This document shows, piece after piece, positions 5,353 through 26,951 of a DNA stretch of 36,294 nucleotides. The DNA is from Oscillospiraceae bacterium (lineage in GTDB: Bacteria; Bacillota; Clostridia; Oscillospirales; CAG-272). The translations under genes were made by a program, and so were the position numbers. Each line of letters opens with the position of its first letter. Within the stretch, counting starts at the first letter, position 1. The stretch is from assembly GCA_015064025.1 (NCBI GenBank), contig SVSZ01000011.1, positions 1 to 36,294 of the forward strand, in the 5' to 3' direction. The notes beneath the pieces are model-generated. The model did not search any database. It worked only from the letters and a program-made list of their open reading frames with translations, and was not told the origin of the DNA.

Positions 5353-5411
5353 GTTCTTTGGAGCACGTTTCCGTTTTGGATGGGGGAGTGCGGTGGCACG
5401 GAGGTGAGAGC

Positions 5412-7502
5412 ATGGAAAGATTGAAAAGGCTTAGACAACAGGCTTTGAATTTTTCTCACTGTAAGGATGAGTTCTATTACAGATTTTATAAAGCGTATGA
5501 GCAAAACGCGCATCTTGGACGTTATGAAAGATACGCGGAGTCGTTTTATACTACCTTCTCGGGATTGACACCCTGTATTTCGGAGGGGGAGTTGATCGTT
5601 GGGAAGCTTGACGGTATTCTCTCGGGAGATGAGGCGGCAGAATGGGAGAGTACCTACCGCGACGTAGCGCGGACGCGATGTGACGGGGCAGGTGGCGGAC
5701 AGGATTCGCACATGGCATTTGATTACGAAAAGCTCCTGTCCCTCGGTATTGTCGGTGTGATCGGAGAGATCGATCGATATCTTTTGGATCGCGACGCGGA
5801 GAGTGCCGCTTATTACAGGTGCTGCCGTCGCTGTCTGATGGCGGTGGCGGAGCATGCCAAACGGTATGCCGCGCTTGCATCCGAGCTTGCGGAGAGTGAA
5901 ACGGATTCTGTGCGCGCTGAGGAGCTTCGTCTTCTTTCACGTGTTTGCGAAAGAGTACCGATGTATCCCGCACGGGATTTTTACGAGGCTTTGCAGTCGG
6001 TGCATTTCATGACGTATGTGATCTCACTCAATCCTTTCCGCTTCTGTCCGCAACAGTTTCAGCTGGGACGCCCCGACCGCTATTTGCTTCCCTATTATGA
6101 AAGAGATACAAGGGAAGGGAGGATCTCGCGCGAGCGAGCACAGCTTCTTCTGGATTGCCTCGGCATCCAGATCAATAACCGTGTTCCCGCGGGGCTTTCC
6201 TCGGGGTATCTGGTTGGCGGCAGGGATGAAGACGGCAGTGTTGTAGCCAACGATCTGACGCGGATGTGTATGCAGGTCGTTTCTGACGTTCGTTTGGTCT
6301 ATCCCGCAGTGGGGCTTTGTTATGTGGAGGATATGCCATCGGATTGCCTTTCCATGGCTTGCGAAATCCTATCACACGGCTGCTCCCATCCCGCGATCTT
6401 CAATGATGACGTCATTGCCGAGGGTCTGATATCGTGGGGCGTTCCCAAAAAGGACGCGCGCAGCTACATCCACAGCACCTGTGTGGAGATCACCCCCATT
6501 GCCGCATCAAACGTGTGGGTAGCAAGCCCGTACACCAATATGGTGGGACTGCTTCTCGAAGCAATGGATGGGGAATACGAAAGCTATGAGGCGCTTTTTG
6601 CAGCGCTTCTTGAGCGTCTTGATCGGCGAATTGAGCAAAACTTTGCCACAGAACGAAAAAAGCGAGAGGTGAGAGCGCAGAACAGCCTCAACCCGCTTCT
6701 TTCCTGCTTTGTCAACGACTGCCTTGCAAAGGGGAAGGATATTGAGGCAGGCGGTGCGCGGTATAACTGGATCATGCCGAGCTTTGTCGGTATGGCGAAT
6801 CTTGTCGATTCGCTTTACGCCTTGAAGAGTGTTGTTTACGATGAACGGCGACTTTCTCTCGGACAGCTCCGCGAGATCCTTGCACATAATTTCGAAGGTG
6901 CTGAGGCGCTTCGTCTGGAGCTCCTTGAAAGACTTCCGAAATACGGAAACAACGACGATGCGGTGGACGGTTATTTTGAGGTGCTGATCGATCACATTGT
7001 CAAAAAATGCAGATCCCTGACGGGCGAGGATGCTTCACGCGCCTTGATCCCCAGTGTCTTCTGCTGGCAGATGCACGAATACTTCGGGCGGCGGACCGGG
7101 GCGACCCCCGATGGCCGTGTTGCGGGATTTCCCCTCGGTGACGGCTCGGGTCCCTGCCAGGGTAGGGAACGATTGGGACCGACCGCCTCGGTGCTTTCCT
7201 CCACTAAGTGGGAGCACCGCGATCTCATAGGTGGCGTTGCCGTCAACATGAAATTTTCCAAGAGCACGCTCGGAAGAGATTCACTTGCTGCCATGGAGAG
7301 CCTCATTAAGGCGTATATGGCACGCGGCGGCTTTGAAATGCAGATCAACGTTACCGACAGAGATACGTTGCTCCGTGCACAGGAGACGCCTGCGGCATAC
7401 CGTGATCTTGTGGTGCGCATCGGCGGCTACAGCGACTATTTTACAAGACTTTCAACCGAGATGCAGGAGGAGCTGATCCTGCGTACCGAGCACAAAATCT
7501 GA
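5412..7502 (+). CDS. Glycyl radical enzyme (PFL-like, C-x-E lyase/dehydratase class)
   Basis: 696 residues from the ATG at 5412 (GGAGGTG 7 nt upstream; an upstream in-frame TTG at 5358 lacks a site). It is smaller than most family members (~760-850). The thiyl-radical cysteine is C357 in HSTCVE, with E359 as the possible general base. This C-x-E arrangement marks the dehydratase/lyase branch (glycerol dehydratase, choline TMA-lyase and relatives), not pyruvate formate-lyase, which has Cys-Cys. The radical glycine is G672 in RIGGYSDYF near the C-terminus. Activity would need a radical-SAM activase; none is in the window. Usual relatives have GCVE, while here Gly is replaced by Thr. It shares a plus-strand run with a HAD phosphatase and a barrel protein. 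Substrate unknown. Confidence 0.9.
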   Translation: MERLKRLRQQALNFSHCKDEFYYRFYKAYEQNAHLGRYERYAESFYTTFSGLTPCISEGELIVGKLDGILSGDEAAEWESTYRDVARTRCDGAGGGQDSHMAFDYEKLLSLGIVGVIGEIDRYLLDRDAESAAYYRCCRRCLMAVAEHAKRYAALASELAESETDSVRAEELRLLSRVCERVPMYPARDFYEALQSVHFMTYVISLNPFRFCPQQFQLGRPDRYLLPYYERDTREGRISRERAQLLLDCLGIQINNRVPAGLSSGYLVGGRDEDGSVVANDLTRMCMQVVSDVRLVYPAVGLCYVEDMPSDCLSMACEILSHGCSHPAIFNDDVIAEGLISWGVPKKDARSYIHSTCVEITPIAASNVWVASPYTNMVGLLLEAMDGEYESYEALFAALLERLDRRIEQNFATERKKREVRAQNSLNPLLSCFVNDCLAKGKDIEAGGARYNWIMPSFVGMANLVDSLYALKSVVYDERRLSLGQLREILAHNFEGAEALRLELLERLPKYGNNDDAVDGYFEVLIDHIVKKCRSLTGEDASRALIPSVFCWQMHEYFGRRTGATPDGRVAGFPLGDGSGPCQGRERLGPTASVLSSTKWEHRDLIGGVAVNMKFSKSTLGRDSLAAMESLIKAYMARGGFEMQINVTDRDTLLRAQETPAAYRDLVVRIGGYSDYFTRLSTEMQEELILRTEHKI

Positions 7503-8513: not shown

Positions 8514-8540
8514 TGCATTGTCCTCCGTTCTTTTTTTCTT

Positions 8541-8569
8541 ATGGTATCACATTCTCAGCAACTTGTCAA
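8541..8569 (-). promoter_or_regulatory. Promoter of the AraC gene (7749-8513)
   Basis: On the minus strand, -35 TTGACA (8569-8564), 17-bp spacer, -10 TACCAT (8546-8541) with an extended -10 TG. The -35 overlaps the palindrome at 8560-8572, a layout that would allow autoregulation. Confidence 0.65.
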
Positions 8570-8590
8570 GTTCCGTTTTTCTTAACTTGT
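8560..8590. promoter_or_regulatory. Candidate operator: palindrome plus direct repeat
   Basis: AACTTGTCAAGTT (8560-8572) is a perfect 6-1-6 palindrome overlapping the minus-strand -35. The half-site AACTTGT recurs at 8584-8590, 24 bp further on and about 15 bp before the plus-strand -35. AraC-type proteins often bind repeated half-sites spaced about two helical turns apart, so this is a plausible site for the neighbouring regulator. No binding evidence is available. Confidence 0.4.
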
Positions 8591-8604
8591 GCCGATTTTT
8601 GAAA

Positions 8605-8633
8605 TTGACACAGCGACGGAGCGGTGATATAAT
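8605..8633 (+). promoter_or_regulatory. Promoter of the QueG-like gene pair
   Basis: Consensus -35 TTGACA (8605-8610), 17-bp spacer, consensus -10 TATAAT (8628-8633) and an extended -10 TG at 8625-8626. It is one of the best matches in the window. Confidence 0.85.
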
Positions 8634-8676
8634 GATACGCGATAGTAAACATAAAAAGCAACGGAGGATCTTTTAT

Positions 8677-9600
8677 ATGACAGGAGATATGAAGCAATAC
8701 ATTACGGATGCGGCGAAGCGTATCGGCATTGACTTGATCGGCTTTGCCTCCCGTGACCGCTTTGCATGCGTTGATGCACAGCACAACCCCTTTTCCATTT
8801 TCCCGGAGGCAAAGACCGTGATCATGCTCGGAAAGCGTATCTGCCGCGGTGCTTTGCGCGGTGTTGAGGAGGGCACAAACTTCGGTGACTATGCGCTCTT
8901 CGGAAAGAACTGGCTGGAGGATGAATTTTTGGCGCTTGCCTGCTACGACCTTGTCAACGCGATCGAGGACGAGGGGTTCGAGGCATGTCCGATCTTCCCC
9001 AATCCCACGGAGATCAAGCCGAGCGGTGTTGCGGTAGCTCCCGGACGTCCCGAGCCGAACGTATTCCCCGATTTTGATTATGCTGCGGTTGCCTGCGGAC
9101 TTGGCGAGATCGGTTATAACGGGCTCTTCCTCAGCGAAAAATTCGGTTCCCGTCAAAGATTTCATATGATCATCACCGACGCAGAGATCGAGCCCACTCC
9201 CATTTACGAGGGAAGCATTTGCGATCGCTGCGGAAAGTGTGCCGCGGCTTGTCCCTTGGGCGCTATCGATACGGAGTGCACGGTGAGCGTTGAGATCTGC
9301 GGAAAAAGGATGGAGGTCGCGCAGATCGATTACGACGTTTGCCGTACCTGCAAAAACGGTGCGTGCGCCAATCGCTTTGCTTCCTATGCCCGTCCCGACC
9401 GCGTGGCGGCGCTTTGTAACCGCACCTGCCTTTGCCATCTTGAGGAAAAAGAGGCGCTCGAAAACAAATTTGAGAACGCCTTCCGCCAAAGCGAGGCTTG
9501 GGCGATCGGCGCGGACAGTGCGCGTGAGAGAAATACGGAGCGCATGAATGTCCTTGGCGGCACCTTCAGTAAGGATGGAAACAGAGGGAACGTAAAATGA
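8677..9600 (+). CDS. QueG/RdhA-like 4Fe-4S protein
   Basis: 307 residues from the ATG at 8677 (GGAGG at 8663-8667). The middle holds YAAVACGLGEIGYNG, corresponding to the conserved Gly-rich segment of epoxyqueuosine reductase (QueG) and reductive dehalogenases. Next comes a ferredoxin-like motif CDRCGKCAAACP (C182-C192), a second cysteine group CRTCKNGAC (from C222) and CNRTCLC near 247. That suggests two [4Fe-4S] clusters feeding a catalytic site which, in the characterised relatives, contains cobalamin. No Tat signal is present, so it is cytoplasmic. It is probably not QueG itself: it is short, has a close paralog directly downstream, and no queuosine gene is nearby. Substrate unknown. Its stop overlaps the next start. 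Confidence 0.78.
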   Translation: MTGDMKQYITDAAKRIGIDLIGFASRDRFACVDAQHNPFSIFPEAKTVIMLGKRICRGALRGVEEGTNFGDYALFGKNWLEDEFLALACYDLVNAIEDEGFEACPIFPNPTEIKPSGVAVAPGRPEPNVFPDFDYAAVACGLGEIGYNGLFLSEKFGSRQRFHMIITDAEIEPTPIYEGSICDRCGKCAAACPLGAIDTECTVSVEICGKRMEVAQIDYDVCRTCKNGACANRFASYARPDRVAALCNRTCLCHLEEKEALENKFENAFRQSEAWAIGADSARERNTERMNVLGGTFSKDGNRGNVK

Positions 9601-10715
9601 AGCTGACGTCACAGATGATCAAGGAGCGGGCGCGCGAGCTTGGCATTGACTGCATCGCGATCGGTAACGTCGAGCGCTTCAAGAATGCACCTCGGCTGAT
9701 GTCCCCGCTGACCTATTTCCCAAATGCGAAATCCGTTATTGCCGTCGCCATGCGCATTCCCCGCGGTACCTATCGCGGTATTGAGGAGGGGACGCATTGG
9801 CACAATTACACCTTTTATTCCTATAACAAGCTCAATTCGCTTTTCCGCCCAAGGCTTTCCTACGAGCTTTGCTGCTTTATAGAGGATCACGGCTGGGAGG
9901 CTGTTGCACACTATCCTGCGGTCCCCGAGGGGCAGGGCACCATGAAAGAGCCTGTGGCAGAGGGAAAGGTGCCTCCTGACGTTGTGTGCAGCGTGCGCGT
10001 GATCGCGGCAGGCTGCGGGCTTGGAGAGATTGGGTTTTCCAAGGTCTTCCTCACGAAGAAGTTCGGTCCCCGCGTGCGGCTTGGCTTGATCTTTACCGAC
10101 TGTGAGCTGGAGCCTGACCCCATTCTTGATACAGGAGACATATGTCTGCATTGCGGTGCCTGCACGCGTGCCTGCCCCGGAAACGCGGTGCCTCCCGTCA
10201 AGGAGGAGAATAAGCGTCTGACAGTGGACTTCGGCGAGAAGAAGGTCTGGTACGGAGACGTGAGAATGGGGCGCTGTACGCTTTCACACCACGGCATGAA
10301 CAACGAATGCTCCCCCTTCTTGAAAAAGGATTTCCCGAACATGGCGTTCGACGTGCGAAACAGTGAGATGACCGAGGAGGAGGCGTATATCTTCTCTTAT
10401 TCCCTTGCGCATGCAACGTGGGGAAGGAAGCCCGAAACGGATAAGGTCATGGAGTACTACGACTATATTCTTGACCACACGGGGTATTTCGCCATTTGCG
10501 GTGCAAAGGGCTGTATCCGTGCCTGTATGGACGTTTTGGAGAAGAGCGGACGGATCGAGAATACCTTCCAAAACAGATTCTTCCGCAAGGAGAGCTGGAG
10601 CCTCTCCAATAAGCCGGAGAAGGTGTCCGACGGTGTCAATCCCTACCGTGAGAAATTTCTGGATGAGCGTTATCCGGGCATCCGTGAAAACGAGTATAAA
10701 AAGACGGAGGATTGA
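9597..10715 (+). CDS. QueG/RdhA-like 4Fe-4S protein, paralog of the upstream gene
   Basis: 372 residues; the ATG overlaps the previous stop (ATGA). It aligns by eye with its neighbour along the N-terminal 200 residues: AKSVIAVAMRIPRGTYRGIEEGT here and a matching AKTVIML...GVEEGT there, then AAGCGLGEIGFSKVFL. The ferredoxin-like motif is CLHCGACTRACPGNAVP from C183. The C-terminal part differs: only scattered cysteines follow (ICGAKGCIRAC near 305) and there is an extra ~60 residues. The pair may form a heteromeric cytoplasmic reductase, or act in sequence on one substrate. This family is poorly characterised; the label follows the superfamily, and a role in queuosine synthesis is unlikely given the context. 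Its 3' end runs into the structured element at 10733. Confidence 0.75.
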   Translation: MKLTSQMIKERARELGIDCIAIGNVERFKNAPRLMSPLTYFPNAKSVIAVAMRIPRGTYRGIEEGTHWHNYTFYSYNKLNSLFRPRLSYELCCFIEDHGWEAVAHYPAVPEGQGTMKEPVAEGKVPPDVVCSVRVIAAGCGLGEIGFSKVFLTKKFGPRVRLGLIFTDCELEPDPILDTGDICLHCGACTRACPGNAVPPVKEENKRLTVDFGEKKVWYGDVRMGRCTLSHHGMNNECSPFLKKDFPNMAFDVRNSEMTEEEAYIFSYSLAHATWGRKPETDKVMEYYDYILDHTGYFAICGAKGCIRACMDVLEKSGRIENTFQNRFFRKESWSLSNKPEKVSDGVNPYREKFLDERYPGIRENEYKKTED

Positions 10716-19373: not shown

Positions 19374-19402
19374 TTTACAAGCCATCTCAGCTTTGTTATA
19401 AT
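19374..19402 (+). promoter_or_regulatory. Promoter of the UROD/corrinoid gene cluster
   Basis: -35 TTTACA (19374-19379), 17-bp spacer, -10 TATAAT (19397-19402) with extended -10 TG. It lies 35 bp before the ATG at 19438 and is the only strong promoter seen ahead of the seven tightly spaced genes to 26951. Confidence 0.75.
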
Positions 19403-19437: not shown

Positions 19438-20496
19438 ATGTTTCACCCCAGCCAAAAAACACTCGATCTGCTCGAGGATATTGAAAAGCGCATCGATCCG
19501 GAAACCGAAGAGGATTTTCAAGATCAGTGGAAGGATTTTCTCTACGACCGATTCAAGGGGGAGCTTTTCCGTCCGAAAAGAAAAAAGCTCTCTTTGCCCA
19601 CCGTCCCCACTCCGAAGATCAATATCAACGATGCCGTTGCGGATTACGATCTGATGCTACAGGATCAGTTGGGGCTCGTTTCCCGCGATTTGAACTCGGA
19701 AACCGCAGCTCTCGGCATTCGTGCCAATTACGGCACGGGTATCCTCTCCTCGCTCTTCGGCGCCGAGATCTTTATTATGCCGTATGAAAACAATACGCTT
19801 CCTACCACACGGATCCTCGGGGATACCGAGCGTATCCGTGAGATGGCAGAGGGGAGGATCCCCGATCTTGAGTGCGGCTTTGGAAGACAGGTCTTTGAGT
19901 TTGGCGAGATCTGCCGCGAGCTGTTTTCGAAGTATCCCAAGATCTCAAAATACGTCCCCGTCTACCATCCCGATCTCCAAGGTCCTCTTGACATTGCGGA
20001 GCTGCTTTGGGGAGGCGAGATGTTTTACGCCATGTACGACGAGCCCGAGCTCGTCCACGAGGCGCTTTCCCTCATCACCGATACCTATACGGCGTTTATG
20101 GAGCGTTGGAACAAGCTGTTCCCGCCGAGGACGGATATGAACACCCACTGGCGCAGCCTTTACTACCGCGGCACGATCCTGATCCGAAACGACAGCGCCA
20201 TGAACCTATCTCCCGACTTTTACCGAGAATTCTCCATTCCCTACGACCAAAGGCTTCTTGACCGTTTCGGCGGTGGCGCGATCCATTTCTGCGGTCGCGG
20301 TGACCATTATATCGAGGCACTGTCCGAGCTACGCGGGCTCTACGGTGTCAATATGTCTCAGCCGCATCTCAACGACATGGAAAAGATCTACCAAAACACC
20401 GTGGATAAGGGAATCAAGCTCCTCTCTTTCAACCGCGAGCGTGCCGAAAGTGACCTTGACCGCCCCAATGCATTCCACCACAATCTGCATTCGTAA
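19438..20496 (+). CDS. UROD-superfamily protein (methyltransferase-like), paralog 1
   Basis: 352 residues; GGGAGGATC before the ATG. The C-terminal half has the features of the uroporphyrinogen decarboxylase/MtaA superfamily: ISKYVPVYHPDLQGPLDIAELLWG, then AIHFCGRGDHYIEAL (H283, C285) and a terminal strand LLSFNRE. The HxC pair matches two of the three zinc ligands of methylcobamide methyltransferases, but no third cysteine follows. It is unlikely to be HemE, since no haem gene is nearby and four paralogs follow. In other anaerobes such proteins transfer methyl groups to or from corrinoid proteins; the corrinoid partner may be the product at 21650-23197. First gene of the cluster, 14 nt before the next. 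Substrate unknown. Confidence 0.82.
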   Translation: MFHPSQKTLDLLEDIEKRIDPETEEDFQDQWKDFLYDRFKGELFRPKRKKLSLPTVPTPKININDAVADYDLMLQDQLGLVSRDLNSETAALGIRANYGTGILSSLFGAEIFIMPYENNTLPTTRILGDTERIREMAEGRIPDLECGFGRQVFEFGEICRELFSKYPKISKYVPVYHPDLQGPLDIAELLWGGEMFYAMYDEPELVHEALSLITDTYTAFMERWNKLFPPRTDMNTHWRSLYYRGTILIRNDSAMNLSPDFYREFSIPYDQRLLDRFGGGAIHFCGRGDHYIEALSELRGLYGVNMSQPHLNDMEKIYQNTVDKGIKLLSFNRERAESDLDRPNAFHHNLHS

Positions 20497-20510: not shown

Positions 20511-21629
20511 ATGACAAACCGTGAACGCACATTGCGCATCCTCCGCTTTCAATCCGTGGACCGCTTCCCTGCCGTCCACTTCGGATATTGGAGAGAGCTC
20601 CTTCTCGAGTGGGCAGAGCAGGGATATATCTCCCGTTCTCTTGCCGAAAGCGTTGGAGACAACAACGCTGCCGATCATGAGCTTGACAAAATACTCGGTT
20701 GGGACTTTAACTGGGCGAGCACGAGGGGAGCCAGTACGCGGTTTTTCCCGGCCTTTGAAAAAAAGGTTTTGGAAACCCTTCCCGACGGAACGCAGCGTGT
20801 ACAAAACAACCTTGGCGTGATCGAGCGGATCAAGCCCGGTATCGTCTCCATCCCCGCAGAGGACGATTATCTGCTCAAGGACCGCAAGGCGTTTGAAACG
20901 CTGTATAAGCCCAAAATGCAATTTGACCCCGCGCGTGTTGATCTTGACTATTTCCGCACCTTTAACGAAACCCGTCCCAAGGACACGCCCCTTGGTCTTT
21001 GGCTTGGAAGCATCCTCGGTGACATCCGCAGCATGACCACCGTCCCCGGCATGAGTTATTTAATTTACGATGAGGACGAGGAGCTTTTTGCGGACATCGT
21101 GGATACCTACGCTCAAATGCAGTACGAATGCGCAAAGGCGATCCTTGAAACGGGTGCGAAATTTGATTTTGCACATTTTTGGGAGGATATCTGCTTCAAA
21201 AACGGTCCGCTCTTATCCCCCGCGCTCTTTGACTCCCTTTGCTCTAAGCACTACCGCCGCATGAGCGAGCTTTGCCACGCACACGGGATCGATCTGATCT
21301 CCCTTGATTGCGATGGCGTTACCGAGCAGCTTCTCCCCATCTGGGTCGAGAACGGCATCAACGTGATGTTCCCGATTGAGATCGGCGTGTGGGGAGATCA
21401 GTTTGAGCCTGCGCGTAAAAAATTCGGAAACCGCGTGCTCGGTGTAGGCGGAATGGACAAAGTTGCATTTCGCAAGGATCGCGCGGCAGTAGATGCGGAG
21501 CTTGAACGTCTTACACGCCTTGTCAGACTCGGCGGCTTTATCCCATGTCCCGACCATCGTTTGATGCCGGGAAGCAAATTTGAGCTTGTCCGATACTATA
21601 CAGAGAAGATCAAGGAGATCAAAATATGA
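20511..21629 (+). CDS. UROD-superfamily protein (methyltransferase-like), paralog 2
   Basis: 372 residues; AGGAGA before the ATG. The N-terminus MTNRERTLRILRFQSVDRFP is the usual opening of UROD-type methyltransferases. LGLWLGSILGDIRSM and the late segments ISLDCDGVTEQLLPIWVENG and INVMFPIEIG follow the family pattern. The usual HxCG is replaced by LDCDG, and a possible later ligand lies in FIPCPDHRLMPG, so the metal site differs from MtaA. In anaerobes, several corrinoid methyltransferase systems for methoxylated or methylated substrates use divergent UROD members as the substrate-binding methyltransferase, a plausible role here. Its stop overlaps an upstream in-frame ATG of the AraC-corrinoid gene; the better start of that gene is 20 nt further on. 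Confidence 0.82.
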   Translation: MTNRERTLRILRFQSVDRFPAVHFGYWRELLLEWAEQGYISRSLAESVGDNNAADHELDKILGWDFNWASTRGASTRFFPAFEKKVLETLPDGTQRVQNNLGVIERIKPGIVSIPAEDDYLLKDRKAFETLYKPKMQFDPARVDLDYFRTFNETRPKDTPLGLWLGSILGDIRSMTTVPGMSYLIYDEDEELFADIVDTYAQMQYECAKAILETGAKFDFAHFWEDICFKNGPLLSPALFDSLCSKHYRRMSELCHAHGIDLISLDCDGVTEQLLPIWVENGINVMFPIEIGVWGDQFEPARKKFGNRVLGVGGMDKVAFRKDRAAVDAELERLTRLVRLGGFIPCPDHRLMPGSKFELVRYYTEKIKEIKI

Positions 21630-21649
21630 TAAAAACGGAGGAAGCGGAC

Positions 21650-23197
21650 ATGCAAACGGAAGCCGCACAAAAATGTGCAGATACGTCCATCGTTTACCGA
21701 ACGGAAACAGATTTTCCGCTTCATGCTCCCGATCTTATGACAGGTATTCTTTCGGCAAGCGAATTCCCGGAGGTTTGTCTGATCGCAAGTGGAAACGGGA
21801 TCCATCAGATCCTTGAACAAGCGATCCCGTGTCGCGAGGGAGAGATCTACATCATTGCCCCCTCTGTCCCCCATGCCTTTTACCGTACGGATCCCGACAC
21901 CACTCTGACCGTTCGCCGTCTTCGCTTCGATCCCGTTTCATTTCTCGGACAGGAAGCTTCAAGGGAGGACAGTCCTCAATATTGCTACGGAGTGTTCACC
22001 GAAAATCCCCTTTCCACCTACGCTATGCTTAACATAAAGACAAGGGCCGAGGTTGCATCCCTGCTGGATGCCATCTGCCGTGAGCTTGATGATGATCTTC
22101 CAAGCCGACAAGCGGCTCTTGGAGCACATATGACTCTTTTGCTGGTTTCGCTTTCGCGGTACGTAGGAAAGGCGATCAAAAATCTTTCCTCCCTTCCACC
22201 CAAGGATCATGCGCTCGCAACGCTTGCCTTACGTTTCGTAAACAAAGAATACAGCAACCGTGAATTGACGCTGGAGCGCATCGCCAAAGAGCTTTACGTC
22301 AGCCAATCGCATCTGAGCCGTATCTTCAAAAAAATGACGGGGGAATCCTTCTCGGCGTATCTGCGCTCACTTCGTCTCACGCGCGCATGTGAGCTTCTCA
22401 GAGACACCTCCCTTACCGTCGACCGCATCGTTGAAATGTGCGGTCTGCGCGACCTTCCCTCCTTTTATCATTCTTTCCACGCACATACGGGCATGACACC
22501 CCACCAATACAGAACACAGCAAATACTGACACCAAATCAAAAACGAATAGGAGAAAAGATCATGAGTATTCTCAACGAAATGTCCGAAAACCTTCAAAAG
22601 GGCAAAGCAAAGCTTGTCAAGGAGCTTGTTGAAAAAGCAATTGCCGAGGGCTGTGACCCCGCAGACATCCTCAACGAGGGACTGCTTTCCGGCATGAGCA
22701 TCATCGGTGAAAAATTCAAGAACAACGAGGTCTACGTGCCCGAGGTGCTTGTCGCCGCAAGAGCTATGAACATGGGCGTTTCCGTCCTCAAGCCTTATCT
22801 TGTCGAGAACGGTATCACAGCTACGGGGCGCGCCTGTATCGGAACCGTGCAGGGTGACCTTCACGACATCGGAAAGAATCTCGTAAAAATGATGCTGGAG
22901 AGCAAGGGGATCGAGGTGATCGACCTCGGTGTTGACGTTCCTGCGGAGAAATTCGTGCAGACCGCGATCGATGAGAACTGTCAGGTCATCTGTTGCTCCG
23001 CTCTTCTCACCACTACCATGTCGGTCATGGCAGATGTTGTCAAAGCGGCGGAGGCGGCAGGCATCCGCGACAAGGTCAAGATCATGATCGGTGGTGCACC
23101 CGTCAACGAAGCATACAGAGAAGAGATCGGTGCAGACTGCTACACGGTAGATGCTGCAAGTGCTGCTGACGCGGCAGCTGCATTCTGCAAAGCATAA
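21650..23197 (+). CDS. AraC-type regulator fused in frame to a corrinoid (B12-binding) protein
   Basis: 515 residues from the ATG at 21650 (GGAGGA at 21638-21643, 6 nt spacer). Residues ~30-110 are an AraC sensor (GEIYIIAPSVPHAFY). Residues ~205-290 are the AraC DNA-binding domain: LTLERIAKELYVSQSHLSRI, then LTVDRIVEMCG, then AHTGMTPHQYR. After a ~15-residue linker, residues 305-515 are a complete methyltransferase corrinoid protein. It has the helical cap (ILNEGLLSGMSIIGEKF, VYVPEVLVAARAMNMGV), then the B12 site GDLHDIGKN with D403, lower ligand H405 and G408, and CSALLTTTM and IGGAPVNEAY. AGGAGA with a 7-nt spacer precedes an in-frame ATG at 22562, so the corrinoid protein may also be made alone. 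The product could be a regulator that reads methyl-corrinoid state. A lost stop codon by sequencing error is the main alternative. Confidence 0.8.
   Translation: MQTEAAQKCADTSIVYRTETDFPLHAPDLMTGILSASEFPEVCLIASGNGIHQILEQAIPCREGEIYIIAPSVPHAFYRTDPDTTLTVRRLRFDPVSFLGQEASREDSPQYCYGVFTENPLSTYAMLNIKTRAEVASLLDAICRELDDDLPSRQAALGAHMTLLLVSLSRYVGKAIKNLSSLPPKDHALATLALRFVNKEYSNRELTLERIAKELYVSQSHLSRIFKKMTGESFSAYLRSLRLTRACELLRDTSLTVDRIVEMCGLRDLPSFYHSFHAHTGMTPHQYRTQQILTPNQKRIGEKIMSILNEMSENLQKGKAKLVKELVEKAIAEGCDPADILNEGLLSGMSIIGEKFKNNEVYVPEVLVAARAMNMGVSVLKPYLVENGITATGRACIGTVQGDLHDIGKNLVKMMLESKGIEVIDLGVDVPAEKFVQTAIDENCQVICCSALLTTTMSVMADVVKAAEAAGIRDKVKIMIGGAPVNEAYREEIGADCYTVDAASAADAAAAFCKA
22549..22564 (+). promoter_or_regulatory. 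Internal ribosome binding site and start codon within the fusion gene
   Basis: AGGAGA (22549-22554), 7-nt spacer, ATG (22562-22564). These bases also encode the linker of the AraC-corrinoid fusion. The site sits exactly where an independent corrinoid protein gene would start. Confidence 0.75.
22562..23197 (+). CDS. Corrinoid protein as a possible separate internal product
   Basis: Starting at the internal ATG gives 211 residues, the normal length of stand-alone MtbC/MtmC/MtaC-type corrinoid proteins, which hold the cobamide that shuttles a methyl group between two methyltransferases. The order is an N-terminal helical bundle (~1-85) and a Rossmann B12 domain with D99-x-H101-x-x-G104. Both the length and the ribosome binding site argue that this product is made whether or not the fusion is. 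It is the same reading frame as the 21650-23197 entry, listed so that the alternative is not missed. Likely partners are the MtaA-like protein (24300) and one of the UROD paralogs. Confidence 0.7.
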   Translation: MSILNEMSENLQKGKAKLVKELVEKAIAEGCDPADILNEGLLSGMSIIGEKFKNNEVYVPEVLVAARAMNMGVSVLKPYLVENGITATGRACIGTVQGDLHDIGKNLVKMMLESKGIEVIDLGVDVPAEKFVQTAIDENCQVICCSALLTTTMSVMADVVKAAEAAGIRDKVKIMIGGAPVNEAYREEIGADCYTVDAASAADAAAAFCKA

Positions 23198-23218: not shown

Positions 23219-24289
23219 ATGAAACCAATGACCACACGCGAACGCATGATCCGTACATATCAAAAACGGGAAGTCGACCGTGTTCCCATGGTTGACAGCG
23301 CTTGGGCCGGCACCGTACGCCGTTGGTATGCAGAGGGTCTGCCCGCCTCCGTTGACTGGGAAGATTATTTCGGCTATGACAAGGTCGTGCGTATCAAACC
23401 TGACAACTCCCCTCGCTTTGAAAACAAAATTCTCGAAACCACCGACAGATATGTTCTGCGAACCACAAGCTGGGGGCAAACGCACCGTCAGTTCAACGCA
23501 CTTGACTCTACACCCGAAACGCTTTCCTCCTACTACGACTCCCCCGAAAAATGGGAGGAGGCAAAGGCACGGATGCTGACCGATTACGAGGACCGTATTC
23601 CGTGGGATACCCTTGCTGAAAATTATCCGAAATGGCGCGCAGAGGGAAGATTTCTGCAGCTTGTCGTCTGGTTCGGATTCGACGTGACACACTCGCATAT
23701 GGTGGGAACGGAAAATGTGTTGATCGGCATGTATGACGACCCCGATTGGATCAAGGATATGTTCGAGACATATCTTAGCACCTCATTGCGCCTTTGCCAG
23801 AAGATCCTTGATGCAGGGTATGAATTTGACGGCATCTTCTGGTATGACGATATGGGATACAAGGGCGCTCCCTTTTTCTCCTCCGAGCTTTATCGCTCTC
23901 TTTTAATGCCCTATCACAAGAGGGCGGTGGATTGGGCTCACGAGAGAGGGCTCTTCACAGAGCTTCACTCCTGCGGCTATATTGAGCCGCTCCTTCCCGA
24001 CATCGTTTCCACGGGTGTGGAGATGCTCAACCCCCTGGAAATTAAGGCGGGAATGGATCCCGCGCGACTGAAAAAGCTTTACGGCGATAAGCTTGCCTTC
24101 CACGGCGGCATCAACGCGCAGATCTGGGACAAGCCGGATCTCGTACGCGCGGAAATGGAGCGCATCATTCCCATGATGAAGGAGGGCGGCGGCTACGTCT
24201 TCGCCTCAGACCATTCCATCCCCAACTCCGTGTCCTTCGAGGATATGAAGCGAATCTCCGAGCTTGCACACAGGCTTGGTACGTACTGA
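23219..24289 (+). CDS. UROD-superfamily protein (methyltransferase-like), paralog 3
   Basis: 356 residues; AAGGGGG before the ATG, 21 nt after the corrinoid frame. The N-terminus TTRERMIRTYQKREVDRVPM is a standard UROD/MtaA opening. The central FDGIFWYDDMGYKGAPFFS and late TELHSCGYIEPLLPDIVSTG (H250, C252), then EMLNPLEIKAGMDP and LAFHGGINAQ, are strongly conserved in UROD proteins found beside corrinoid proteins. After the barrel strand YVFASDHSIPNSV there is no third cysteine, unlike MtaA. Position directly after the corrinoid gene suggests it is the substrate:corrinoid methyltransferase, but this is inference. Which methylated compound is used cannot be told from the sequence. Confidence 0.84.
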   Translation: MKPMTTRERMIRTYQKREVDRVPMVDSAWAGTVRRWYAEGLPASVDWEDYFGYDKVVRIKPDNSPRFENKILETTDRYVLRTTSWGQTHRQFNALDSTPETLSSYYDSPEKWEEAKARMLTDYEDRIPWDTLAENYPKWRAEGRFLQLVVWFGFDVTHSHMVGTENVLIGMYDDPDWIKDMFETYLSTSLRLCQKILDAGYEFDGIFWYDDMGYKGAPFFSSELYRSLLMPYHKRAVDWAHERGLFTELHSCGYIEPLLPDIVSTGVEMLNPLEIKAGMDPARLKKLYGDKLAFHGGINAQIWDKPDLVRAEMERIIPMMKEGGGYVFASDHSIPNSVSFEDMKRISELAHRLGTY

Positions 24290-24299
24290 GGTACCTCAT

Positions 24300-25316
24300 A
24301 TGAAGTACAATATGAAAAAATGGTTGGCAGACCTTGCATCTGCCGAAGAAAAAAAAGCACTCCCCATCCTCTCCTTTCCTTCGGTCTCCTTGCTTGGCGT
24401 TTCGGTGCGTGAGCTGATATCAAGCAGTGATCTGCAGGCAAAAGGTATGCAAGCGGTGGCAGAGTGTGTCGATTCCGCTGCGGCGGTAAGCCTTATGGAT
24501 CTGTCCGTGGAGGCAGAATGCTTCGGCGCAGAGGTCCGTTTTGCGGACGACGAGGTCCCCACGGTCATCGGGCAGCTGATCCACGACGAAAAGGAGGCGG
24601 AAAAGCTCTGCGTGCCCACGGTGGGAAGCGCTCGATCCGGACTTTATATCGATGCGATCGCAAAGGCTTGTAAGCTGATCACGGATCGCCCCGTGCTTGC
24701 GGGAATGATCGGTCCTTTCTCCCTCTCCGCCCGTCTTCTTGACGTATCCGAGATCATGATCTACTGCTACGACGAGCCCGACATGGTTCACACGGTGATG
24801 GAAAAAGCAACGGCGTTTCTCACCGAATACGCAAAAGCCTACCGTGAAGCGGGCGCTGACGGCATCGTAATGGCAGAGCCCGTAGCAGGACTTCTCTCTC
24901 CTTCGCTTGAAGAGGAATTTGCAGCCCCGTACGTAAAAAGGATCATTGACGCAGTCCAAGCGGATGACTTTGCCGTAGTCTACCACAACTGCGGCGACAA
25001 TACACCCATGATGATCCCCTCGCTTACTTCCGTGGGCGCTATGGCGTATCATTTCGGAAATGCGATCGATCTCAGTGCTATGCTTGAAAAATTCCCTGCA
25101 AACGTTCCCGTGATGGGCAACGTAGATCCCGCCGGTGTCCTTCGCGCGGGAACCCCCGAGACCGTACGCAAGGAAACCCTTTCTCTTCTTGAAAAATGCG
25201 CTCGTTATCCCAATTTCGTCGTTTCATCGGGCTGCGACGTACCTCCCATGACACCGTGGGAGAACATTCGTGCCTTCTTCGCCGCGGTGGAGGAATTCAA
25301 TGAGCACAGTAAATGA
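24300..25316 (+). CDS. MtaA/CmuA-like methylcobamide methyltransferase
   Basis: 338 residues from the ATG at 24300 (GAGGT 7 nt upstream), the usual MtaA length. The zinc triad of methylcobamide:coenzyme M methyltransferases is visible: H229 and C231 in VYHNCGDN, and C312 in SSGCDVPPMTPWEN. Other family segments are VLAGMIGPFSLSARLLD, ADGIVMAEPVAGLLSP and VMGNVDPAGVL. The family moves a methyl group between a corrinoid protein and a zinc-bound thiol. In a bacterium the acceptor need not be coenzyme M, and tetrahydrofolate-type enzymes are a different family, so the acceptor is open. It is the only one of the five UROD members here with the complete triad. The 3' end overlaps the DUF2284 gene by 17 nt. 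Confidence 0.86.
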   Translation: MKYNMKKWLADLASAEEKKALPILSFPSVSLLGVSVRELISSSDLQAKGMQAVAECVDSAAAVSLMDLSVEAECFGAEVRFADDEVPTVIGQLIHDEKEAEKLCVPTVGSARSGLYIDAIAKACKLITDRPVLAGMIGPFSLSARLLDVSEIMIYCYDEPDMVHTVMEKATAFLTEYAKAYREAGADGIVMAEPVAGLLSPSLEEEFAAPYVKRIIDAVQADDFAVVYHNCGDNTPMMIPSLTSVGAMAYHFGNAIDLSAMLEKFPANVPVMGNVDPAGVLRAGTPETVRKETLSLLEKCARYPNFVVSSGCDVPPMTPWENIRAFFAAVEEFNEHSK

Positions 25317-25881
25317 GCGTCTTACAGAGGCGGTGCTCTCACTCGGTGCCGACCGTGCGGCGGTCATTCCCGCACACGAGGTCGTCACGGACAGCGCCTT
25401 TCGCCCCATGTGTGAGGCAAACACCTGCGGAAAATACGGAAAATGCTACATGTGCCCCCCCGACGTAGGAGAGATCGATACATTGATCGCCTCGCTCGAA
25501 AGCTATTCCTCGGTGCTTGTCTATCAGAGAGTTGAGCCGCTTGAGGACAGCTTTGACGTAGAGGGAATGCACCGTGCGCGCATTGTGATGTTCCGTCTTG
25601 CACAGGCGTTGCGTGATCGCGTGAAGGATATAGGGATTACACACGTCCTTCACTTAACTGCGGGTGCCTGCGGTGTTTGCAGGGTATGCGCCAAGGAGGA
25701 GGGTCTTCCCTGCCGCGTCCCCGACCGTGCGACCTCCTCGCTTGAGGCGTACGGCATTCACGTATCCCGCCTTGCAGAGTCTGCGGGGATGCGTTATATC
25801 AACGGTGAAAATACCGTGACCTACTTCGGTGCTGTCTTCTTTACTCCCACCGAAACCGAAAAGGAGGAATCCGCATGCTGA
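25300..25881 (+). CDS. DUF2284 predicted metal-binding protein
   Basis: 193 residues from the ATG at 25300 (GGAGG, 6 nt spacer), overlapping the preceding gene. Cysteine clusters NTCGKYGKCYMCPPDVG (residues ~42-58) and GACGVCRVCAKEEGLPC (~125-141) match DUF2284, a family of small cytoplasmic proteins predicted to bind metal or an iron-sulfur cluster. Members recur next to UROD-type methyltransferase genes in anaerobes. Their role is not established; they may supply electrons, or help repair or load a corrinoid or zinc centre (inference). The stop overlaps the next start (ATG at 25875). AAGGAGG for the next gene lies inside its last codons, indicating tight coupling. Confidence 0.82.
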   Translation: MSTVNERLTEAVLSLGADRAAVIPAHEVVTDSAFRPMCEANTCGKYGKCYMCPPDVGEIDTLIASLESYSSVLVYQRVEPLEDSFDVEGMHRARIVMFRLAQALRDRVKDIGITHVLHLTAGACGVCRVCAKEEGLPCRVPDRATSSLEAYGIHVSRLAESAGMRYINGENTVTYFGAVFFTPTETEKEESAC

Positions 25882-26951
25882 AGCTTGATCCGATGATCGC
25901 CAAACGATACGATGCCTTTTGGCAAAGAGGCGCCGTTGATCGTTTTCTTACCTATCTTGCCGTCGGCAAGAATCCCTCAAAGCCGCCGCGACTCGCAGGC
26001 ATGAGCGATGAGGAATACATCAGGCGGAAGTGGGACGATATCGCGCTTCGCACAGAGGTCTCCAACAAGCACTGTGCGACCAACAATTATTATCTTGACG
26101 CTTTTCCAAGGCAATTTATCAACTTCGGACCTGGTTCGCTTGCGGCATCCATCGGCGGTAATTATCAATTTGCACTTGATACCGTTTGGTTCGACAGGAA
26201 TCCCGTTGTGACCGATTGGGAAGCTCCCCCCACGATCGCCTTTGACCCCGACAGCGACCTTTGGAAAAAAACGCTTGCCTTTACCGATGGGATCCTTGAG
26301 GGCGGTATTGCACACACCTCCATCGCGGATCTTGGAGGCTCGCTTGACATCGTTGCTTCCCTGCGTGGCACCGAGCCTCTTCTTTACGATCTGTACGACT
26401 ATCCAGAAGAGGTCAAGGCAGCATCCCGTCGAGTCACCGAGCTTTGGAAGCATGCCTATACCCTGCTTGCAGATCGCACGGCTCCTTATCAGGAGGGAAC
26501 CTCCTCGTGGATGCCCCTGTGGTGCCGCGAACGCTATTCTCCTCTACAATGCGATCTTTCCGTCATGTTCTCTCCCGATATGTTTGAGGAATTCGTGCTT
26601 CCCGATCTGATCGACCTGACGGAATTTCTCGACCACTCCGTCTATCACATGGACGGGCTCGGCGAGATCCCGCACCTTGATCATCTCCTCTCCATCCCAC
26701 GCCTTGACGCCATTCAATGGACCCCCGGTGCGGGCATCGGAGATCCGGGAGACGAGAGATGGTTCGAGATGTACCAAAAAATCCAGGCGGCAGGAAAGGG
26801 GCTTGTCCTCTTCGTGGGAAAGCCCGAGCTTGTCGAGCCGCTTATTCACGCGCTCTCCCCCAACGGTGTGTTCCTCTCTGTCGGAGGTTGTGACGACTAT
26901 ACCGCGAAAAAAGTAGAGGAAATGATCGTTTCCCACGGCTTGGGAAAATAA
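25875..26951 (+). CDS. UROD-superfamily protein, divergent paralog 4
   Basis: 358 residues; AAGGAGG before the ATG, overlapping the DUF2284 stop. The fold is recognisable from FLDHSVYHMDGLGEIPHLDHLL, AIQWTPGAGIGDPGDERWFEMY and LVLFVGKPELVEPLIHAL, a pattern of the UROD-like proteins found with trimethylamine-type corrinoid systems. The catalytic zinc HxC is replaced by YHMDG, and one cysteine remains in SVGGCDDYT. It is thus the most divergent of the five and may bind a substrate without zinc, or serve as a corrinoid-loading or structural partner. It is the last gene of the cluster before a strong terminator. Function unknown. Confidence 0.78.
   Translation: MLKLDPMIAKRYDAFWQRGAVDRFLTYLAVGKNPSKPPRLAGMSDEEYIRRKWDDIALRTEVSNKHCATNNYYLDAFPRQFINFGPGSLAASIGGNYQFALDTVWFDRNPVVTDWEAPPTIAFDPDSDLWKKTLAFTDGILEGGIAHTSIADLGGSLDIVASLRGTEPLLYDLYDYPEEVKAASRRVTELWKHAYTLLADRTAPYQEGTSSWMPLWCRERYSPLQCDLSVMFSPDMFEEFVLPDLIDLTEFLDHSVYHMDGLGEIPHLDHLLSIPRLDAIQWTPGAGIGDPGDERWFEMYQKIQAAGKGLVLFVGKPELVEPLIHALSPNGVFLSVGGCDDYTAKKVEEMIVSHGLGK

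Follow-up and report, generated by a model that had tools for sequence, protein, structure and literature searches.

A gene that joins an AraC-type regulator in frame to a corrinoid protein, with a predicted internal start for a free methyl carrier

One gene of the window, the 36,294-nucleotide stretch of Oscillospiraceae DNA analysed here, probably encodes two proteins: a long autoregulator with a corrinoid sensor and a short methyl carrier. Ribosomes that start at 21650 (or 21626) would produce an AraC-type regulator that ends in an entire corrinoid protein, and ribosomes that start at an internal site, 22562, would produce the corrinoid protein alone. The short product would be the methyl carrier of the surrounding URO-D-type methyltransferases. 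The corrinoid domain of the regulator probably retains its cofactor and would act as a sensor; because it copies the carrier of the pathway, the methyltransferases and the activator could act on it. Its state (empty, Co(II), Co(I) or methylated) might be relayed via a four-helix cap to the AraC part, which would then set transcription of its own operon. Cobamide and DNA binding, the direction of control and the state that is read are what we infer here from sequence. Comparison between genomes supports a conserved fusion, use of the internal start and retention of the cofactor motif in fused copies that lack this start.

The fusion gene lies on the plus strand (21650..23197; 515 amino acids), in a frame without a stop from 21626 or 21650 to 23197. 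The ATG at 21650 follows a GGAGG Shine-Dalgarno sequence (21637..21641, energy -9.5). An alternative ATG upstream, at 21626, overlaps the stop of the preceding gene, has a Shine-Dalgarno energy of -8.5 and would give 523 residues; the long product would start at either 21650 or 21626. Residues are counted here from 21650. All features that follow are on the plus strand. A cupin-like AraC_binding domain (residues 41-165; 21770..22144) is matched weakly in the window (Pfam, 27.1 bits against a cut-off of 21.1) and found in 33 of 39 aligned fused members. The AraC-type DNA-binding domain, HTH_18 (residues 211-289; 22280..22516), scores 81 bits against a Pfam cut-off of 33.6, which places the protein with the AraC/XylS regulators, and this part is predicted to bind DNA and control transcription. 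A linker of about 15 residues (290-304; 22517..22561), highly variable in relatives at 10-25 residues, leads to the B12-binding_2 four-helix cap (residues 308-381; 22571..22792; 73.4 bits) and the B12-binding Rossmann domain (residues 394-506; 22829..23167; 97.4 bits), with the cobalt-binding histidine motif DLHDIG at 22856..22873. HTH_18, B12-binding_2 and B12-binding were each matched in all 39 aligned fused members scanned. The initial annotation had described a single frame made up of an AraC-type regulator and a complete corrinoid protein with DLHDIG, and the stop-free frame and Pfam matches bear this out. Two cysteines and a histidine in the cupin-like part (C61, C112 and H75 of the window protein) are nearly invariant in the alignment of fused regulators (A1); they possibly constitute a second input.

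The gene sits in an operon-like row on the plus strand. Before the row is a promoter-like site (TTTACA-17-TATAAT, 11/12 consensus; 19374..19402), found by consensus match in a region where five such sites compare with 5.2 expected from shuffles; the consensus scan found no plus-strand site within the fusion gene. Then come a weakly matched URO-D-like methyltransferase gene (19438..20496, 26.6 bits), a second directly before the fusion, the stop of which overlaps ATG 21626 (20511..21629), and, after the fusion, a third (23219..24289), an MtaA/MtbA-like methylcobamide methyltransferase gene (24297..25316, URO-D 197 bits), a DUF2284 predicted metal-binding protein (25270..25881) and a protein without a Pfam match (25875..26951), similar to open reading frames beside L038, L039, L050 and L072 (36-42% identity) and beside L077 (26%). 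Relatives of the window's URO-D-type genes were present, within the stretches examined, at 40 of 45 fused loci, 16 of the 45 having one 66-74% identical to 20511-21629; the loci without are L046, L052, L068, L075 and L083, some on short stretches. RACo-type activators adjoin L067 and L087, and the genome of the window has one on another contig (G000:C133:4938-5656), as a two-piece match with a TAA in the second piece. This genome (2.16 Mb, 135 contigs, 80% complete) has no other gene that matches the corrinoid part at E <= 1e-45; besides the fusion, the only match covering the B12 part is an 870-residue frame of 33% identity, which we read as MetH. Elsewhere in the window are a glycyl radical enzyme of the PFL2/hydroxyproline dehydratase kind (5358-7502; TIGR01774 408 bits, below cut-off) and two adjoining 4Fe-4S proteins of 360 and 372 residues (8518-10715; weak Fer4 matches in Pfam), QueG-like in our reading only.

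How widespread is the fusion? Among 117 loci, which include the best 80 of 571 confirmed stretches of a genome collection, 48 carry the HTH and corrinoid matches within one unbroken frame. Two of these, L009 and L010, appear to duplicate L044 and L077 and were dropped; the remaining 46 genes come from 45 genomes and were all selected for being in-frame joins. As an unbiased check, a profile restricted to the AraC part (A2) was run against samples from the order (394 genomes), the genus (35), the class (391) and the phylum (398). Among the candidates scored, 15 genes reached E < 1e-80, and 15 of 15 run into a corrinoid domain, the frame of one (G541) being cut by a contig end; A2 was itself derived from fused proteins and may favour fused genes. 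Five of these genes are new (L161, L166, L172, L181, L182), in four further genomes, which brings the total to at least 51 distinct genes, in 49 genomes. The distribution is patchy. Counting the genome of the window each time, the fusion is present in 3 of the 35 genus genomes and in at least 9 of the 394 order, at least 3 of the 391 class and at least 1 of the 398 phylum genomes; in these last three samples the best five candidates per genome were scored and matches may be missed, and the genomes compared are mostly metagenome-derived and incomplete. In a tree of the AraC part, all 51 fused genes form one clade against five unfused relatives (support 100/100).

The initial annotation had proposed a search for the same domain order in related genomes, with stop-separated genes in all relatives as the outcome that would count against a fusion. 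The in-frame join was found in 48 other genomes. AraC/corrinoid pairs with a stop between them exist as well (17 rows, 15 in frame; L012 and L086 look identical): in L012, L080, L090 and others, an AraC-type gene stands directly before a separate corrinoid gene of the same family. The high share of in-frame pairs (15/17) possibly reflects search bias. Could such pairs be the two-gene ancestor of the fusion? This was not accepted, because their AraC genes are of another type (354-437 residues in the five scanned, three of the five with a PocR domain). The unfused AraC genes that come closest (E 1e-50 to 1e-58) did not reveal a pre-fusion ancestor either, since in the eight genomes examined for this the corrinoid gene of the family was not found (G333, G214, G614, G658) or lies on another contig or more than 80 kb away (G616, G622, G715, G780).

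The linker holds the signals of the putative internal start. A GGAG sequence (22550..22553) precedes an in-frame ATG at 22562, which would open a nested coding sequence for a free corrinoid carrier of 211 residues (22562..23197); a ribosome binding site and start within the ~15-residue linker had been noted at the outset, and both are there. Taken alone, the window offers an unexceptional site: with an anti-Shine-Dalgarno core duplex energy of -7.3 it ranks fourth among the 26 in-frame ATG, GTG and TTG codons of the frame, a GTG at 22916 being stronger (-7.6), and 7.3% of 1580 other in-frame starts in fused frames reach -7. The internal site is more than chance because it is conserved across fused genes. 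GGAG or AGGA lies no more than 18 nt from the start in 32 of the 34 start-keeping genes versus 6 of the 17 others. The GGA of these Shine-Dalgarno sequences falls in one codon register in 24 genes and in a second in 8, and the residue pair encoded there is GE (22 of 32), KE, GD, EE or TE. Two registers and five residue pairs suggest that the bases, not the residues, are conserved. In strength the internal Shine-Dalgarno sequences match those of stand-alone corrinoid genes, 64 of 65 of which, in a control that was not de-duplicated, are at -5 or below (median -8.7).

The fate of the internal start follows the presence of another carrier gene. Genes were placed in class D (start kept) when an ATG or GTG lies at, or one codon past, the aligned corrinoid start with an anti-Shine-Dalgarno energy of -3.5 or lower, and otherwise in class S; this rule was fixed after the first 48 loci had been viewed, and the five new genes were classed by reading the junction. 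There are 34 D and 17 S genes. In genomes without another corrinoid gene of the family (cut-off E <= 1e-45, or 1e-40 in part of the genomes), all 29 fused genes are D, two of them (L047, L073) with weak Shine-Dalgarno sequences; in genomes with another such gene, 17 of 22 are S and five are D (L041, L044, L061, L172, L182). Fisher's test on this genome-wide count, which ignores relatedness, gives 1.8e-9. An earlier, local count (48 loci including the two duplicates; ATG, GTG or TTG within four codons, energy -5 or lower) had scored the start as present at 30 of the 33 loci where no further corrinoid gene was visible and at 3 of the 15 where one was (Fisher 2.3e-6), by a criterion that 22% of the 1580 other in-frame starts pass; the genome-wide count is the better test. 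L046 and L056 are S genes without a visible neighbour, and in both genomes a stand-alone gene was then found on another contig. The later-found genomes G169 (98% complete) and G262 agree with the rule, and G800 holds an S gene (L181) alongside a D gene (L182). Weak alternative starts are present in L043, L046 and L077.

Trees and a relic add to this pattern. On the AraC tree, 11 changes between D and S are needed, at least five of them forced by supported branches, in counts that cannot separate gain from loss of the start. A tree-based pair test found five independent supported pairs, with 2.7 on average in the same direction and none in the opposite (median p 0.25), and is not significant alone because the pairs are too few. 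In a two-state simulation on the same tree, with a rate from a coarse grid and tree uncertainty ignored, none of 15500 kept draws was as concordant as the data. At L089 the order is a URO-D gene, a short relic of the AraC end broken by stops (L089:5936-6080), GGAG, ATG and an intact carrier gene, which is the only one found in its genome. That a former internal start opens an intact gene is as expected if the internal start works, and the locus speaks for a loss of the AraC part there. L116 has a free gene at the same place without a recognisable relic, and it and the D gene L067 group with L089 (99/97). In L070/L071 and L074/L076, the fused S copy and the adjoining carrier are sisters (100/97 and 100/99) placed near D genes, which we read as a probable tandem duplication after which the fused copy lost its internal start. 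The two products proposed earlier for this one gene are thus strongly supported by comparison, as the start is kept where no other carrier exists, is mostly absent where one does, and survives alone after decay of the AraC part.

A three-part frame of about 895 residues occurs in genome G800 (L181, the same as L180; L181:3186-5870, minus strand): AraC regulator, corrinoid protein and URO-D methyltransferase are joined in one open reading frame, the internal start is absent at the first junction, and a Shine-Dalgarno sequence (-7.5) precedes MTNKERF at the second.

What has become of the corrinoid domain in the S genes? By sequence, these would yield only the fused form, so that the domain should serve the regulator. 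The cobalt-binding histidine is present in all 17 copies without an internal start; DxHxxG is found in 16 of 16 aligned, which retain 93% of 84 carrier-conserved columns, and L181 matches the signature too. Against the stand-alone reference, conservation in the S copies is 89% over 38 columns of the cap and 93.5% over 62 of the Rossmann domain; in the D copies it is 97% and 98%. S copies are often on longer branches, L083, L066, L058 and L077 being flagged as long. The carrier signature DxHxxG...SxL...GG (S-x-L, with T or V allowed) is complete in 49 of 49 fused domains, two cut by contig ends being left out; a stricter B12 signature with S-x-T/V was found in none of the 51 fused genes, the family having S-x-L. 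The natural reading is that the fused corrinoid domain of S genes would have a sensing role.

Other explanations account for part of these observations. Two products may be made while the regulator reads only whether a cobamide is present (apo or holo), as a sensor of supply with CarH-like logic; this is an unlikely but serious contender. CarH forms DNA-binding tetramers once it binds coenzyme B12, according to the portions available of PMC4557120 and PMC8156234, and in S copies the cofactor motif is kept while the cap is less conserved than the Rossmann domain. A supply sensor is harder to reconcile with the URO-D-type methyltransferase genes at 40 of the 45 fused loci in the stretches examined and with the domain being a paralogue of the carrier, not a general B12 module, in which the cap is still 89% conserved. 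Considerably less probable is a corrinoid part that senses nothing and travels as a passenger, the fusion persisting because the carrier is still made from the internal start and the join is harmless. As the three-part frame of L181 shows, stops between adjacent genes of an operon can be lost in this group; for an unneeded domain, however, decay or a new stop would be expected, and the S genes, without a free carrier by sequence, keep the frame, the histidine (16/16 aligned) and 93% of the carrier-conserved columns.

Is the internal start perhaps an accident? The fusion itself would then be the carrier, with a chance Shine-Dalgarno sequence and ATG in a K-G-E-K-I-M linker, and GGAGAA does code for G-E in 22 of 32 linkers, at a site unexceptional in the window alone. 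It is very improbable all the same, given a start absent in 17 of 22 genes with another carrier versus 0 of 29 without, Shine-Dalgarno sequences in two codon registers with five residue pairs, and a carrier gene at L089 that relies on this start alone. A CarH-like light sensor built on a different DNA-binding domain shares the domain order (DNA-binding domain, four-helix cap, Rossmann) and was rejected as scarcely credible: the Wx9EH motif, known from the part of PMC8156234 at hand, is missing in 51 of 51 fused genes (two of them cut at the 3' end by contig ends), and many records are titled as animal gut samples. Least probable of all, to the point of being negligible, is an assembly or sequencing error joining two genes. 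The window's own assembly is fragmented (135 contigs, 80% complete), yet the identical in-frame join recurs in 48 other genomes, including the 98% complete G169, and because there are 51 distinct fused genes in 49 genomes, an assembly slip was rejected.

How does the fusion compare with known systems? CarH and AerR come closest, and it matches neither. In CarH, a MerR-type DNA-binding domain is followed by a cap and a B12 domain akin to that of MetH, every CarH homologue studied is said to conserve Wx9EH (PMC8156234, in the text available), and DNA-binding tetramers form on coenzyme B12 binding (PMC4557120, likewise). The fusion resembles CarH, as described in these portions, in its order of DNA-binding domain, linker, four-helix cap and Rossmann B12 domain, and differs in its AraC-type DNA-binding domain with an extra cupin-like part, its nested carrier gene and its methyltransferase setting. 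The 47 matches to solved structures include methyl carriers and methionine synthases but none named CarH; the best chain is 1y80, a 'predicted cobalamin binding protein' (E 4.8e-53). Like the corrinoid methyl carriers (TIGR02370, MtgC, MtbC, MtaC), the fused domain consists of B12-binding_2 and B12-binding with DxHxxG; unlike strict TIGR02370 and MtgC members, it falls below the curated cut-offs (193 of 215.3 and 214 of 370 bits) and is fused to a regulator. In Rhodobacter, the accessible part of PMC9144470 describes AerR, one gene that gives long and short forms of a B12-binding regulator via an internal start; AerR is not itself a DNA-binding protein, and its long form exceeds the short one by 40 residues. 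Two forms from one gene via an internal start are predicted here as well, the support for a translation start inside the coding sequence being comparative (the D/S pattern, the Shine-Dalgarno registers and L089); unlike in the AerR of that source, an entire transcription factor would set the long form apart from the short, which is probably a carrier of the pathway. The initial annotation had held that known B12-based regulators use other DNA-binding domains and that the design would be new. This stands for CarH, with its MerR-type domain, in the text at hand; a B12-regulator gene with an internal start is, however, already on record in AerR (PMC9144470).

Related clusters are the type 1 mlp gene clusters of Kountz and Balskus (PMC10418091, in the text available). 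Such a cluster unites several Mlp genes with a corrinoid protein and a Ram/RACE activator. URO-D-type genes and the corrinoid part are present in the window, while a RACo-type activator adjoins L067 and L087 but is on another contig in the genome of the window; 'AraC' and 'fusion' do not occur in the main text of that paper. SignatureFinder records fusions of cobalamin domains with HTH and with other outputs, and 'AraC' does not occur in the available text of its paper (PMC11796333). No description of an AraC-corrinoid fusion was found in the portions of literature searched, a scope that lay outside most subscription journals.

To our knowledge, the sensing of flux through corrinoid methyltransferase operons in bacteria is an open question. 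The fused copy might sense methylation or redox state, and a specific form of the two-product reading can be put forward tentatively. When substrate is available, the methyltransferase of the pathway would methylate the carrier copy in the regulator, and methyl-cobalt would switch the AraC part; the internal start would supply the free carrier, and carrier duplication would, time and again, leave the fused copy free to specialise in sensing. The cofactor protein of the pathway probably also controls the pathway's genes. If this is true, the sensor is a copy of the catalytic cofactor protein, and one mRNA serves both carrier and regulator. The recurrent tie between another carrier gene and absence of the internal start would then constitute a natural experiment in splitting the roles of a bifunctional gene.
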